DNA from: Spinactinospora alkalitolerans
GTDB lineage: Bacteria > Actinomycetota > Actinomycetes > Streptosporangiales > Streptosporangiaceae
Reading direction: 5' to 3'
Length of the DNA stretch: 64,000 nucleotides
Assembly: GCF_013408795.1 (NCBI RefSeq)
Contig: NZ_JACCCC010000001.1
Coordinates: 4,154,001-4,218,000, forward strand
A model generated the notes under the pieces. That model had not been told where the DNA came from, searched no databases, and worked only from the letters and a program-made list of their open reading frames with translations. This document shows, piece by piece, positions 50,881-58,852 of the stretch. Numbering within the stretch: position 1 is the first letter of the stretch; every line of letters begins with the position of its first letter. A program made the translations under genes and the position numbers.

Positions 50881-51426
50881 ATGGTCCAGCAGCAGATACT
50901 CCCGGGCACCTGGCAGATCGACGCCGCCCACTCCGAGGTCGGTTTCTCGGTCCGGCACATGATGGTCAGCAGGGTGCGCGGCCGGTTCGAGAAGTTCGAC
51001 GCCACGCTGACCGTCCCCGAGGACCCCGCCCAGTCCTCGGTGCGCGCCACCATCGACGCCTCCTCGATCAACACCAACCAGGAGCAGCGCGACGAGCACG
51101 TGCGCTCCGCCGACTTCTTCGACGCCGCCGACCACCCGGAGTTCACCTTCGTCTCCACCGGGATCCGCCAGGACGGCGAGGACCTCGTCGTCACCGGCGA
51201 CCTCACCATCAAGGGCAACACCCGCCCGGTCGAGCTCGCCATGGAGTTCAACGGCGCCACCGTCGACCCCTACGGCATGCAGCGCGCCGGTTTCCACGCC
51301 GAGACCGAGATCAGCCGCAAGGCGTTCGGCGTGGACATCGAGACGCCGATGGAGAGCGGCGGCGTGGTCGTGGGCGACAAGATCAAGATCGAGATCGACG
51401 CCGAGTTCACCCGCCAGGACGGCTGA
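50881..51426 (+). CDS. YceI-family protein, lipocalin-like isoprenoid-binding fold
   Basis: A 181-residue protein with the YceI beta-barrel. WQIDAAHSEVGFSVRHMMVS is the conserved start, followed by VRGRFEKFDATLTV, EQRDEHVRSADFFDAADHPE, LTIKGNTRPVELAMEF and FHAETEISRKAFGVDIETPM. YceI proteins bind polyprenyl chains; periplasmic ones are stress-linked. No signal peptide is visible, so it is probably cytoplasmic. Divergent marR is the likely regulator. The start is ATG at 50881 behind AGGAGA. Confidence 0.95.
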   Translation: MVQQQILPGTWQIDAAHSEVGFSVRHMMVSRVRGRFEKFDATLTVPEDPAQSSVRATIDASSINTNQEQRDEHVRSADFFDAADHPEFTFVSTGIRQDGEDLVVTGDLTIKGNTRPVELAMEFNGATVDPYGMQRAGFHAETEISRKAFGVDIETPMESGGVVVGDKIKIEIDAEFTRQDG

Positions 51427-52994: not shown

Positions 52995-55634
52995 ATGGCC
53001 ACATCCGAGCCCTCCGACCCGACCTCGCCAACGCGCAAGGTCGAACCCGTGGCGCCCACCACCAGGCTCGACCGCGGTCAGGGCCGGACGCGTTGGGTCA
53101 CCGCCGTGCTGCGGCCGGGCGGCGCCAGGGCCGCGGCTCCCGTCGAGGCCGAACGCACGGCCACGCTGCCCGCGCAGCCGCGCACCCGCCGCCTCGACAC
53201 CCCCGCGCGCGGCGCGGCGGCCGACCCGCCGTGGTGGCGCCGCGTGCTGCGCCCGCTGCTGGAGTGGTTCAGCAGACTGGTCTCCCGGGTCGTGGTGGGC
53301 CCGGCCGGGGAGCTCGACTACGCCATCCCCGCCGAACTGCGGCGCGACTACGATGTCCTGGACCACATCGGCTCCGGCGGGGAGGCCGTCGTCTACCTCG
53401 CCGAGCCCGTCGAGAGGACCGGTGCGGCCGGGCGGGCCGACGGCGCCCCGGCGCGCAGGATCGCGCTCAAGGTCTACCGCCCGGGCCACGACATCAACCG
53501 GGAGCTGCTCGACCGGCTGCGCGCCCGCGGCACCGCCGACCCGCACGCCCCCGCCATCCACGGCTACGGCCACGCCCGCAGCTCCTGGGGCGAGGAGCTG
53601 GCCTGGGAGGCCCAGGAGTACTTCGCCGACGGATCGCTGCGCGCCCTGATCGACGAGGCGCCCCTGCCGCAGGACCGAGCCCGCCTGATCGTCGCCGCGG
53701 TCGCCGAGTGCCTGCACCACTGGCAGGAGTCGCTGCAGCACAACCACACCGACGTCAAACCGGAGAACCTGCTGGTGCGGCGGCTCGACCCGCCGGTCTT
53801 CGCGCTCACCGACTTCGGCGGCGCGGTCCGCGCCACCATGAGCCGGGTCTACGGCGGACTGGCCATCACCGAGGACTACGCGGCCCCCGAGGTCGTCGAA
53901 GGCCGCCGCGAGGCGCCCGCGGCGTGGTGGTCGCTGGGCGTGATGGTGCACGAGCTGATGACCGGCCGGCGGCCGGCGCGGGGGGAGAACTGGCTGACCG
54001 CGCGCACCACCGAGGTCGACGTCTCCGCCATCACCGATGAGCGCTGGCGGCTGCTGGCGCGCGGCCTGCTCACCCCCGTGCCCGATGCGCGCTGGGGCCA
54101 CGCCGAGGTCGTGCAGTGGCTGGCCGGCGAGCGCCCGCAGGTGGTCAAGGCGCGCAGGCACGCCCCCATCAGGTTCGCCGACGTCTCCCACGACGATCCG
54201 CCCAGCCTCGCCTTCGACCTGCTGGACCGCTCCGACAAGGGCGAAGTGTGGCTGCGCACGCACAGCCGGATCCTGCGCACCTGGCTGGACCGCGAGGTCC
54301 GCGACTTCACCTTCGACCGCGGCCATCTGACGCAGTTGGAGGAGCACCCCGAGCGCGCGCACCTGGCCATCAGCGCGCTGGCCGCGCGGTTCGTCCCGGG
54401 CATGCCGCCACGCTACCGGGGCCACGAGGTCAGCGCGGAGGGCGTGCTCGCGCTCGCCACCGGCGAGGGCAGCCGACACGCCGCGCTGCGCGAGGCCGTC
54501 GAACTGGGCGCGCTCGGCTTCGCCGCCCGGCACTGGTGCGACCATCCCGGATGCCGCGCCGAGGGCACCAACCGGTGCGCCCTGCTGGAGCGGGTCCAGC
54601 ACGAGGTCCCGCTGGTGATGCGGCAGGTCGAGACGACCGTCGACCGGCTGGCGCGCACCGATGCCCAGGGGCCGGACCGGCCCGGCGCGCACGAATGGGA
54701 CGCCGCGTGGGCGCGCGCCGTCGAGCTCGTCCTCGATCCCGAAGCCCCTGCGCGCCACCGGCGGCTGCTGCGCGCGCAGTCCTGGCACCCGGCGCAGCGC
54801 AGCGACGCCCCGCGCACGCCGTGGTGGCGGGAGCAGCGCGGGATCGGCCTGCGCGGGCGGCGGGGCGAGGTGACCGCGAACGCCGCGCTGGTCACCGCCG
54901 TGCTGCTGCTGCCGAGCGCGGCGCGGGCCGGCGCCCTGCAGCGGGACCGCGACCGCGAGGACAGCCGCGCGCGCCGCCGGGGCCTGTGGGAACGGACGGT
55001 CAACGCTGCGGGCGCCGGGTGGGCGGGCCTGCGCGAACGGCTGTCAGGGCCCCGCGGCGCCCCGCCGCACGACCCCGCGGGTCCTCCGCCCTACTCCGCC
55101 GACGGGCGGCCGCTGACCGCCTCCGAGCACCGCCGGGCCGAGCGCCGCCGTGCGGCCGAGGCCGAGCGGGTGAACCGCGGCATGCGCCAGATCCAGCGCG
55201 CGATGGGCGCCGGCCGCTGCCGCAGGTTCGCCTACCCGGCCGGGCTGCTGGGCGTGCTCGACGGCGTCGGCCTGTGGCTGTGGGAGTCCCGCGGCCTGTC
55301 CGGCGACACGCCCGCCCTGACCTCGGCGCTGGACGCGCTGACCGCGTTCGCCGGCAGCGCCCCGATCAGCGCGCTGTCCGGACTCGCCCGCGGCGCCATG
55401 GCGCTGATCCCCGGCGGGGTCGGCCTGGTGTGGTGGTTCTCCGTGGCCCTGGGCCTCGCCCTGTGGCTGCTCGGCCGCACAGCGGCCAACCGGCGCCGCA
55501 AGGCCAGAACCCAGCTCATGGCCTACCGCCTGGCCGTGGCGGGTTCGATCGTGATGGCCGTGCGCCTGCTCGCCGGCGGACTGTTCTACCTGGGTACGGG
55601 CGTGCTGATCCCAGTGAGTATGATCACTGGTTGA
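52995..55634 (+). CDS. Membrane-anchored protein kinase with uncharacterised C-terminal domains
   Basis: An 879-residue protein. The kinase domain (about 117-385) has the glycine loop GSGGEAVVY (126-134), the ATP lysine in ALKVYRPG (Lys159), HTDVKPENLL with catalytic Asp253, DFGG from 273, and YAAPEVVEG, so it looks active; HTD in place of HRD makes it a non-RD kinase. Residues about 400-600 form a domain I do not recognise (RFVPGMPPRYRGHE, and Cys515/520/528 in a CDHPGC...C pattern). An arginine-rich stretch follows, then three to four membrane helices end the protein (about 735-879). The aldose-epimerase gene overlaps its stop (TGATG). Target unknown. Confidence 0.87.
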   Translation: MATSEPSDPTSPTRKVEPVAPTTRLDRGQGRTRWVTAVLRPGGARAAAPVEAERTATLPAQPRTRRLDTPARGAAADPPWWRRVLRPLLEWFSRLVSRVVVGPAGELDYAIPAELRRDYDVLDHIGSGGEAVVYLAEPVERTGAAGRADGAPARRIALKVYRPGHDINRELLDRLRARGTADPHAPAIHGYGHARSSWGEELAWEAQEYFADGSLRALIDEAPLPQDRARLIVAAVAECLHHWQESLQHNHTDVKPENLLVRRLDPPVFALTDFGGAVRATMSRVYGGLAITEDYAAPEVVEGRREAPAAWWSLGVMVHELMTGRRPARGENWLTARTTEVDVSAITDERWRLLARGLLTPVPDARWGHAEVVQWLAGERPQVVKARRHAPIRFADVSHDDPPSLAFDLLDRSDKGEVWLRTHSRILRTWLDREVRDFTFDRGHLTQLEEHPERAHLAISALAARFVPGMPPRYRGHEVSAEGVLALATGEGSRHAALREAVELGALGFAARHWCDHPGCRAEGTNRCALLERVQHEVPLVMRQVETTVDRLARTDAQGPDRPGAHEWDAAWARAVELVLDPEAPARHRRLLRAQSWHPAQRSDAPRTPWWREQRGIGLRGRRGEVTANAALVTAVLLLPSAARAGALQRDRDREDSRARRRGLWERTVNAAGAGWAGLRERLSGPRGAPPHDPAGPPPYSADGRPLTASEHRRAERRRAAEAERVNRGMRQIQRAMGAGRCRRFAYPAGLLGVLDGVGLWLWESRGLSGDTPALTSALDALTAFAGSAPISALSGLARGAMALIPGGVGLVWWFSVALGLALWLLGRTAANRRRKARTQLMAYRLAVAGSIVMAVRLLAGGLFYLGTGVLIPVSMITG

Positions 55635-56566
55635 TGGACACGCATTCAGCAGGTGAAGCGCCCGGCGAGTACCGCATCGAGGCCGACGGCTACCAGGCGA
55701 TCGTGGACGGGCGGGGAGCGACGCTGCGTTCCCTGACGTGGCGGGACCGCGACCTGATCCTCAGCTACCGCCCCGCCGACGGCCCCCAACTCTCCCAGGG
55801 CCAGGTGCTGCTGCCCTGGCCGAACCGGATCGACCGCGGGCGCTACGCCTTCGGCGGCGCCGTCCACCGGCTCGACATCACCGAACCGGCCTACGACACC
55901 GCGATCCACGGGCTCACCCGCACCAAGCCGTGGGAGCCGCTGAAGCACACGGAGAACCGGGTCGAGCTCGGCTACACGCTCGAGGGCGCGCGGGGGTACC
56001 CGTTCCGACTCGAACTGAACGTCGCCTACGAGCTCGCCGCCGACACCGGGCTCACCGTGCGCATCGCCGCCCACAACATCGGCGACTCCCCCGCCCCCTA
56101 CGGCAACGGGTCGCACGATTTCCTCACCCTGGGTGAACCGGTCGACGACGCCGTCCTGCGGCTGCCCGCCTCGTCCTACCTGCCCGTGGACGACCGGCTG
56201 CTGCCCGCGGGCCCGCCGCGCCCGGTGGAGGGGACCCCCTGCGACTTCCTGCGGCCCCGGCGGTTCGGCGGGACGCAGCTCGACACGGCGTTCACCGACC
56301 TGGTCCGCGAGTCCGACGGCCGGGCGTGGGCGTTCCTCTCCGACGACACGATCTGCGTGGCGCTGTGGGCCGACGCGAGCTACGGCTGGCTGCAGGTGTT
56401 CAGCGCGGACCGGCCCGAGTCGGGCATCAACCGGCGCGGCATCGCGGTGGAGCCGATGACCTGCCCGCCGAACGCGTTCGCCTCCGGCGAGGACCTGATC
56501 GTGCTGGCCCCCGGGGCGTCGTCGGAGTCGACCTACGGAATCCTGCGCACCGATCCTTTGGAGTAG
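55634..56566 (+). CDS. Aldose 1-epimerase family protein
   Basis: A 310-residue galactose-mutarotase-fold protein. GQVLLPWPNRIDRGRYAFGG, YDTAIHGLTRTKPWEPL (with the catalytic histidine of IHG), APYGNGSHDFLTL (second histidine) and GIAVEPMTCPPNAF (the glutamate base) mark the active site. It interconverts sugar anomers; some members act on phosphorylated or unknown sugars. The ATG at 55634 shares its A with the kinase stop, implying translational coupling. Whether the kinase and the epimerase share a role is not known. Confidence 0.92.
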   Translation: MDTHSAGEAPGEYRIEADGYQAIVDGRGATLRSLTWRDRDLILSYRPADGPQLSQGQVLLPWPNRIDRGRYAFGGAVHRLDITEPAYDTAIHGLTRTKPWEPLKHTENRVELGYTLEGARGYPFRLELNVAYELAADTGLTVRIAAHNIGDSPAPYGNGSHDFLTLGEPVDDAVLRLPASSYLPVDDRLLPAGPPRPVEGTPCDFLRPRRFGGTQLDTAFTDLVRESDGRAWAFLSDDTICVALWADASYGWLQVFSADRPESGINRRGIAVEPMTCPPNAFASGEDLIVLAPGASSESTYGILRTDPLE

Positions 56567-56937: not shown

Positions 56938-57540
56938 CTAGGAGAGCAGCTCGCGCAGGCGGTCCAGGTCCTCGGGGGTGTCGATGTCGTCGGGGCGGGC
57001 GACCCCGTCGCAGGCGACCGGGGTGATGAGGTGGGAGTAGGCGCGCAGGAACGGCCGGGCCCCGACGTCGCCCTCGGCCAGCGCGTGGACGCTGGGCCAG
57101 TGCTCCCGGCCGAGCAGGACGGGGTTGCGCGGGTTGCCGGCGTAAGTGGCCACGGCGGCCCGGGCTCCCCCCTCGTAGGCGGAGACGAGCCGCTCGATCG
57201 CGGCCGCCGTCACCAGCGGCTGGTCGGCCAGTGCGATCACCACGGCGTCGACCCCCTCGGGCAGGCTCCGCAGCCCGGCGCGCAGCGAGGACCCCATCCC
57301 GCTGGTCCAGTCGGGGTTGTGCACCCCGGCGGCGCCCTCCACGGTGACCTCGGCGGCGCCGGTCACCACGTAGATCGGCGCGCAACCGCCCTCGCGCAGG
57401 ATGCGGACGCCCCGGTCGGCCAGGCGCTCCCCCGCCAGCTCGACCAGTGCCTTGGGCCGTCCCAGTCGGCTGCCCCGGCCGGCGGCGAGCAGGAGACCGG
57501 CGACCGATCGGCCCTCTCCCCCGCGATCGCGTGTCGTCAT
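56938..57540 (-). CDS. MobA/MocA-like nucleotidyltransferase
   Basis: A 200-residue NTP-transferase-fold enzyme. The nucleotide loop is GLLLAAGRGSRLGRPKALV; VVTGAAEVTV, NPDWTSGMGSSLRAGL and VVIALADQPLVTAAAIERL follow, the last holding the metal-binding aspartate. MocA adds CMP to the molybdenum cofactor of hydroxylases. The neighbouring XdhC, CoxE-like and CoxD-like genes support a MocA-type role in molybdenum-hydroxylase maturation. The start is ATG at 57540. The 187-base gap before XdhC holds no gene. Confidence 0.9.
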   Translation of the reverse strand: MTTRDRGGEGRSVAGLLLAAGRGSRLGRPKALVELAGERLADRGVRILREGGCAPIYVVTGAAEVTVEGAAGVHNPDWTSGMGSSLRAGLRSLPEGVDAVVIALADQPLVTAAAIERLVSAYEGGARAAVATYAGNPRNPVLLGREHWPSVHALAEGDVGARPFLRAYSHLITPVACDGVARPDDIDTPEDLDRLRELLS

Positions 57541-57727: not shown

Positions 57728-58852
57728 TCAGACCGGGGCCGCCACCAGGGGCGTGTGGTGGATCGGCCCGTCCACCGCGGTCAGCGGCCGGCCGCTGCCG
57801 CCCCAGCGGGTCTGGATGAGCTCGGCGGCGATGGACACCGCGGTCTCCTCCGGCGTGCGCGCGCCGAGGTCCAGCCCGATCGGCGAGCGCAGCCGCGCCA
57901 GGTCCCGCTCGGCCACGCCGACCTCGCGCAGACGGGCCATCCGGTCGTCGTGGGTGCGGCGGCTGCCCATGGCCCCGATGTAGCCGGCGCGGGAGCGCAG
58001 CGCCACCTCCAGCACGGGCACGTCGAACTTGGGATCGTGGGTGAGCACGCAGATCGCGGTGCGCTCGTCGATCTCGGCCTCGATCTCGGCCAGGTATCGG
58101 TGCGGCCACATGACCACCACCTCGTCGGCCTGCGGGAAGCGCTTGGAGGTGGCGAAGACCGGTCGCGCGTCGCACACCGTGACCCGGTAGCCCAGGTAGG
58201 AACCGATGTTGGCGACGGCGGCGGCGAAGTCGATGGCGCCGAAGACGAGCATGCGCGGGGCCGGGGCGAAGGACTGCACGAACACCTCCAGCTCGTCGCC
58301 GCGGCGCTGGCCGTCGGCGCCGTAGCGCAGGGTCCCGGTGCGTCCCTGGGCGAGCATGCCGCGGGCGTCGTCGTCGACGGCCGCGTCCAGGCGCTCGGTG
58401 CCCAGTCCGCCCTCGGCGCGCTCCGGCCAGACGATCCTGCGGGCACCCAGTGGGCCCGGCCCCGAGACCACGGTCGCCACGGCCACCGGCCGGTGCTCGT
58501 TGACCGCCGCGATGATCTCGCCGAGCTGCGGATGGCGCGGCGGGTCGATCGGCTCCACCAGGACGTGCAGGGTCCCGCCGCAGGTCAGACCGACGGCGAA
58601 CGCCTCGTCGTCGCTGACCCCGTAGCGTTCGCGCACCGGCGTCCCGGTCCGGATGACCTCCTGGGCCAGTTCGTAGACCGCGCCCTCCACGCAGCCGCCG
58701 GAGACGCTGCCGATCACCTCCCCCGAAGCGCTCACCGCCATGGCGGCCCCGGCCTCGCGCGGAGAACTGCGGTAGGTGTCGATCACCGTGGCGAGGGCGA
58801 ATGTCTCACCGGTCGCGTAGAGATCGGCGATGGCGTTGCGGATGTCACGCAC
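57728..58852 (-). CDS. XdhC/CoxI-family molybdenum-hydroxylase maturation protein
   Basis: A 374-residue protein with an N-terminal XdhC/CoxI domain (ATVIDTYRSSPREAGAAMAV, SVSGGCVEGAVYELAQEVI) and a C-terminal Rossmann-type domain (MLVFGAIDFAAAVANIGSYL, GYIGAMGSRRTHDDRMARL). XdhC binds and sulfurates molybdenum cofactor before insertion into xanthine dehydrogenase; CoxI has a like role for CO dehydrogenase. The start is GTG at 58852, overlapping the CoxE-like gene by eight bases. No hydroxylase structural gene is visible in the window. Confidence 0.93.
   Translation of the reverse strand: MRDIRNAIADLYATGETFALATVIDTYRSSPREAGAAMAVSASGEVIGSVSGGCVEGAVYELAQEVIRTGTPVRERYGVSDDEAFAVGLTCGGTLHVLVEPIDPPRHPQLGEIIAAVNEHRPVAVATVVSGPGPLGARRIVWPERAEGGLGTERLDAAVDDDARGMLAQGRTGTLRYGADGQRRGDELEVFVQSFAPAPRMLVFGAIDFAAAVANIGSYLGYRVTVCDARPVFATSKRFPQADEVVVMWPHRYLAEIEAEIDERTAICVLTHDPKFDVPVLEVALRSRAGYIGAMGSRRTHDDRMARLREVGVAERDLARLRSPIGLDLGARTPEETAVSIAAELIQTRWGGSGRPLTAVDGPIHHTPLVAAPV

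Follow-up and report, generated by a model that had tools for sequence, protein, structure and literature searches.

A predicted membrane-anchored non-RD kinase with an unnamed helical, putatively zinc-binding module, and its epimerase neighbour in Spinactinospora alkalitolerans

Several described systems resemble the locus studied here. The PknB/Stk1-type PASTA kinases (NF033483) are Ser/Thr kinases anchored in the membrane of actinobacteria, with the transmembrane (TM) segment directly after the kinase domain. Actinobacteria also possess GTPase-centric conflict systems, whose components include PP2C, vWA and DO-GTPases alongside an active kinase that carries a zinc ribbon or TM helices as a fusion (Kaur et al., 2020, PMC7159879). 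E. coli YegI is a further bacterial Ser/Thr-type kinase with a C-terminal extension. I compared with these a kinase gene in a 64,000-nucleotide stretch of the S. alkalitolerans genome (hereafter the window), which is followed by a gene for an aldose 1-epimerase family protein. No paper naming this kinase, or a kinase-epimerase pairing, was found in the literature. The features of the locus are as follows.

50881-51426, forward strand: YceI-like protein, conserved upstream of the kinase in 45 of 54 loci
52995-55634, forward strand: Ser/Thr kinase-like gene, 879 amino acids, HTD (non-RD), with C-terminal hydrophobic helices
52995-53327, forward strand: residues 1-111, an N-terminal tail that the AlphaFold model shows as mostly disordered
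53328-54128, forward strand: kinase domain, residues 112-378, with G-loop 126-129, K159, HTD 251-253, DFG 273-275 and APE 297-299
53745-53753, forward strand: HTD catalytic motif (non-RD)
54150-54986, forward strand: unannotated post-kinase helical domain, residues 386-664, with a high-confidence AlphaFold model
54531-54578, forward strand: H-x-C-x-H-x2-C-x7-C motif (H513, C515, H517, C520, C528), a putative zinc site
55227-55631, forward strand: C-terminal membrane region, approximately residues 745-879, with two to three TM helices predicted from hydropathy and AlphaFold
55632-55636, forward strand: TGATG stop/start overlap of kinase and epimerase, absent from most relatives
55634-56566, forward strand: aldose 1-epimerase family protein, 310 amino acids, a neighbour of the kinase and not a demonstrated partner
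56938-57540, reverse strand: MobA-like NTP transferase, part, with XdhC/CoxE/CoxD, of the older surroundings of the epimerase
57728-58852, reverse strand: XdhC/CoxI family protein

The kinase reading frame opens with ATG, and was also chosen by a codon-usage gene caller purpose-written for the present analysis. Its match to Pfam Pkinase (PF00069; E = 1.4e-19, 70.9 bits against a gathering score of 31.7) places it in the protein kinase superfamily, and the only other Pfam model above cut-off is a tyrosine-kinase-like companion. The N-terminal tail of ∼110 residues has low pLDDT in the AlphaFold model to about residue 77, and again between residues 96 and 108. Across 37 aligned orthologues, residues G126/G128/G129, K159, H251-T252-D253, K255, N258, D273-F274-G275 and E299 are invariant, and position 170, the candidate helix-C acid, is Glu or Asp in all of them. 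The position before the catalytic Asp, where RD kinases possess an arginine, is T252 in 37/37 sequences; the invariance of the HTD motif marks it as a fixed trait, not as an error of sequencing. The initial annotation had described an 879-residue kinase with intact catalytic motifs and HTD in place of HRD, and the invariance of K159, HTD and DFG bears this out: judged by its motifs, the kinase looks catalytically intact, and fixed as non-RD. The basal activity of non-RD kinases is generally independent of activation-loop phosphorylation. With the RD arginine absent, the window kinase would probably have basal activity that does not need this phosphorylation either.

The architecture differs from that of the PASTA kinases in several respects. 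The match to NF033483 scores 46.3 against a cut-off of 450, HTD replaces HRD, and Pfam finds no PASTA domain in the window kinase, which is thus no PASTA kinase. Its TM region lies at the far C-terminus, after the helical domain, and not directly after the kinase domain. A hydropathy scan places hydrophobic segments at residues 801-819 and 841-859, and the AlphaFold model shows C-terminal helices from about residue 745 onward, so that the predicted membrane helices would occupy the last ∼135 residues. The two methods agree with the initial annotation, which had put the helices at the extreme C-terminus. This arrangement is not unique, as the same order of kinase, domain core and TM segments (the latter read by eye) is found in two HRD relatives from other families of the class (L212 and L218). 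For YegI, a relationship with the post-kinase domain was rejected, the hhalign probability being 0.3%. The anti-phage kinase MAD6 was likewise rejected, with a score of 40.3 against an NCBIfam equivalog cut-off of 460, as were MAD6 and PD-T4-6 on their PADLOC matches, which are confined to the kinase region. No defence genes were recognised in the surroundings of the kinase.

The region between the kinase domain and the membrane helices was originally taken as about 200 unrecognised residues with a cysteine cluster at 515, 520 and 528. It is unrecognised, with no Pfam or NCBIfam model covering residues 386-664, and its length is really about 280 residues. Scanning 17 diverse members of the domain singly gave just scattered weak matches, each in one or two members. 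Structure prediction had been suggested for residues 390-620, and from an input of 77 sequences AlphaFold returned a confident, almost all-helical model of residues 386-664 (mean pLDDT 93, pTM 0.89) with no convincing match to a known fold. The best Foldseek match of the domain in the PDB has E 2.0, with none at E <= 0.001 in the PDB or BFVD; the best VIA-align match of the model has Z 3.9, with none at Z >= 5; and the domain profile has no matches to PDB sequences at E <= 1. A missing structural match is no proof of a new fold. The three cysteines belong to a larger motif, H513-x-C515-x-H517-x2-C520-x7-C528, which is invariant in the 37 aligned window-type orthologues. It is also invariant in the HRD-paralogue group, with the same ligand order and a variable spacing of the last cysteine, and it is gone in some distant relatives; a zinc site at this position is probable, and is referred to here as putative. 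Two segments of the domain, P-x-F...P..L and P-R-Y-R-G...EG...A, look alike in a by-eye reading of the alignment, and may reflect an internal repeat.

The domain is carried by 72 of the 250 genomes in a family-wide draw, and by the window genome only in a phylum-wide draw of 296. Searches of viral contigs with the kinase, and of plasmids with a fragment of L212, gave no relatives. In every relative examined the domain is directly C-terminal to the kinase domain, and four groups can be told apart. Group (a) comprises HTD kinases with C-terminal TM helices, the window type. Group (b) is an HRD paralogue with several TM segments, which the window genome also possesses at 6.34 Mb (G000:6336620, L031:5181-8360); it shows 35% identity in the domain and the same H-C-H-C-C motif followed by TM segments, but differs from the window kinase in its canonical HRD, its kinase lineage, its larger number of TM helices and a long Pro/Thr-rich C-terminal tail. 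Group (c) consists of TM-less HTD kinases (L127 and L129, with L189 of the same type). Group (d) consists of degenerate kinases (L044, at L044:7890-9674, and L122-L126), in which no HxD or DFG motif was found and which keep both the post-kinase domain and the Cys/His motif. On a kinase-domain tree, (a), (c) and (d) together with L128 form one lineage (support 100/99) and (b) lies far off; the domain is thus found in combination with two separate kinase lineages.

Residues 386-664 represent an undescribed module that has no database name, and that could be established as a domain family of its own. A more far-reaching interpretation, which I regard as tentative and on balance doubtful, is that this is a regulatory domain not described before, with a fold that is new and with bound metal, combined with RD and non-RD kinases, which outlived catalysis in the pseudokinase branch and would couple a membrane signal, or the metal or redox state, to the output of the window kinase. 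The degenerate-kinase lineage does indicate that the domain can be useful without catalysis. It might be argued from the same lineage, a sister of the window type whose clearly degenerate members keep the domain, that the window kinase too is chiefly a scaffold, weak or inactive, with the helical/metal module as its working part; the invariance of the catalytic residues in the 37 aligned window-type orthologues makes this improbable.

The TM-less kinases of group (c) bear on the relationship to the GTPase-centric conflict systems. In two loci (L127:2395-8125 and L129:6197-12048), such a kinase with the same domain adjoins a conserved cluster that includes a DO-GTPase2 and several genes without Pfam names, and the coordinates of the TM-less HTD kinase and DO-GTPase2 are adjacent in four genomes (G424, G478, G558 and G564). 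The TM-less kinase and this cluster probably constitute a GTPase-centric conflict system. The window kinase could accordingly belong to the actinobacterial kinase branch of the GAP1-N2 GTPase-centric systems and have become detached from it, given that its TM-less HTD relatives adjoin the cluster (L127, and L129 by gene order) and that the systems published by Kaur et al. (2020, PMC7159879) include active kinases with TM helices or zinc ribbons, an active kinase with a metal-type or TM extension at the C-terminus being the feature they share. However, DO-GTPase2 is absent from the window genome (at E 1e-6) and from several other carriers, so that the window kinase is not a member of such a system as it stands. 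No PP2C or GAP1-like gene, nor any other gene of the system, was noticed flanking the kinase (DO-GTPase2 being the component searched for), the vWA protein near it is the CoxE of the XdhC/CoxD set, and the locus is a stable core-genome position rather than a variable island. I therefore regard this origin as unlikely.

The second gene is an aldose 1-epimerase family protein by Pfam Aldose_epim (PF01263; E = 5e-42, 144.7 bits against a gathering score of 27), and at least 61 of 62 members of the family retain the catalytic residues H92, H161, D217 and E273. It resembles the Aldose 1-epimerase PRK15172 group (NF011719), with a match over its whole length (E 1e-62) and conserved catalytic residues, but its score of 212 falls short of the equivalog cut-off (251); no substrate is therefore assigned.

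The kinase stop codon (55632-55634) and the epimerase start codon (ATG, 55634-55636) share one base, as the initial annotation had recorded. This TGATG overlap implies that the two genes would be co-transcribed in the window, and they may be translationally coupled there. The initial annotation had taken the pair as a candidate for an undescribed two-gene system that might sense or act on a sugar, to be checked by looking for a conserved pair in other genomes. I gathered 54 orthologous kinase loci, comprising the window and 53 from the same GTDB family (Nocardiopsis, Streptomonospora, Thermobifida, Marinactinospora, Murinocardiopsis and allies), called their genes, and counted those downstream of the kinase. 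The epimerase is adjacent in 38 loci, displaced in 5, absent in 7 and unreadable because of a contig end in 4. Same-strand adjacency thus holds in 38/50 readable loci, and where the epimerase is displaced, one to three genes are inserted and it lies within six genes of the kinase. The pair is indeed recurrent, but the recurrence is explained by background synteny. In the same 54 loci, DUF2470 is found upstream in 46 and YceI in 45, with MobA and XdhC downstream in 46 each, which indicates collinearity of the entire block; among the flanking genes that were counted, none is missing as often as the epimerase. The spacing between kinase and epimerase ranges from -1 to 558 bp, and in 34 of the 38 adjacent pairs an overlap is impossible, even with the earliest possible start codon. 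By this comparison, the one-base overlap in the window is exceptional, and no mark of a conserved unit. A conserved two-gene system, with the epimerase wherever the kinase is and independent of background synteny, was not found.

The epimerase also has a distribution of its own, with homologues in 204 of the 250 family genomes against 72 of 250 for the domain of the kinase. In relatives lacking the kinase (L191-L199, L204 and L206), it is located near the same MobA gene, mostly with XdhC, CoxE and CoxD. Several of these also have it beside a set of genes for an AllF-like CoA-ligase protein, AllG, AllH, DUF6986 and PucR, identified by Pfam for L195 and L204 and by N-terminus similarity for the others. 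This set belongs to allantoin/oxamate and purine catabolism. The recurrent linkage of the aldose-epimerase-like gene to both this set and XdhC/MobA in these loci can be noted here, and the real substrate of the epimerase may be one of purine/ureide catabolism and not of sugar metabolism. AllG is located at 1.33 Mb in the window genome, 2.9 Mb from the kinase at 4.21 Mb. On the epimerase tree, the kinase-linked sequences and the MobA-linked sequences from kinase-less genomes separate almost without mixing. In one genome (G377) kinase and epimerase are 27 kb apart, the kinase among genes of the DUF2470 side (L114) and the epimerase in the company of MobA-XdhC-CoxE (L207). The simplest history would be one in which the epimerase belongs to the MobA/XdhC side and the kinase to the YceI/DUF2470 side, with the loss or movement of intervening genes, by local loss or rearrangement, bringing the two together.

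As read from gene order, kinase and epimerase are thus neighbours by chromosomal history, and not a dedicated two-gene system. The opposite reading is a true module, in which the epimerase produces or senses the anomer of a sugar and is regulated by the kinase, or the kinase is controlled by a sugar that the epimerase binds. Adjacency on the same strand in 38/50 readable loci and the overlap in the window speak for it, and given that this adjacency persists in most of the clade, there may be a weak functional link between the two genes. I nevertheless consider a true module very unlikely, given the 7 loci without epimerase, the insertions in 5, the variable gaps, and the orthologous epimerase at the MobA/XdhC locus of kinase-less genomes. 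The proposed role in sugar sensing has no counterpart in the kinase either, where no sugar-binding domain was found by Pfam. The pair is an example of a suggestive TGATG overlap and same-strand adjacency which comparative genomics resolves into background synteny.

The interpretation that I favour, and consider probable, is that of a membrane-anchored Ser/Thr-type kinase belonging to the lineage core of the Nocardiopsis/Thermobifida group, with a helical putative-zinc module probably acting in cis or in docking, beside a functionally untied epimerase. In such a protein, the cytosolic non-RD (HTD) kinase domain would be followed by the helical module, and this by the C-terminal TM anchor. Because the module directly follows the kinase domain in all relatives examined, I infer from the architecture that it probably exerts control over the kinase in cis, or serves at the membrane as a docking site for its substrate or partner. 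The epimerase would be an ordinary enzyme of the mutarotase type, with MobA-XdhC-CoxE/D as its older neighbours and, in relatives, the allantoin/oxamate genes. What is of lasting interest at this locus is the unnamed post-kinase module with its invariant Cys/His site, present in all aligned window-type orthologues and in other kinase lineages.

A core of the domain extends to more distant proteins. Its first ∼110 residues are common to divergent actinobacterial HRD kinases (L010-L012, L212 and L213; hhalign probability 96%). The N-terminal tails of most of these distant kinases are strongly enriched in TxxD. In L010, L011, L012 and L212 the motif is repeated (TRRD, TQRD) beyond its frequency in shuffled sequences, and such repeats are possible FHA-docking phosphosites. 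For the window kinase, FHA docking was dropped as an explanation, with 18 TxxD observed in the window-type orthologues against 22.1 expected from shuffles. In one locus (L130:3781-10267), three HRD kinases stand in tandem. All three have the domain core in diverged form, and the Cys/His motif is absent from the copies that were aligned. In another (L134:5939-11586), a kinase with a diverged domain adjoins Hsp70-, GrpE- and DnaJ-like genes, as read by eye from their translations.
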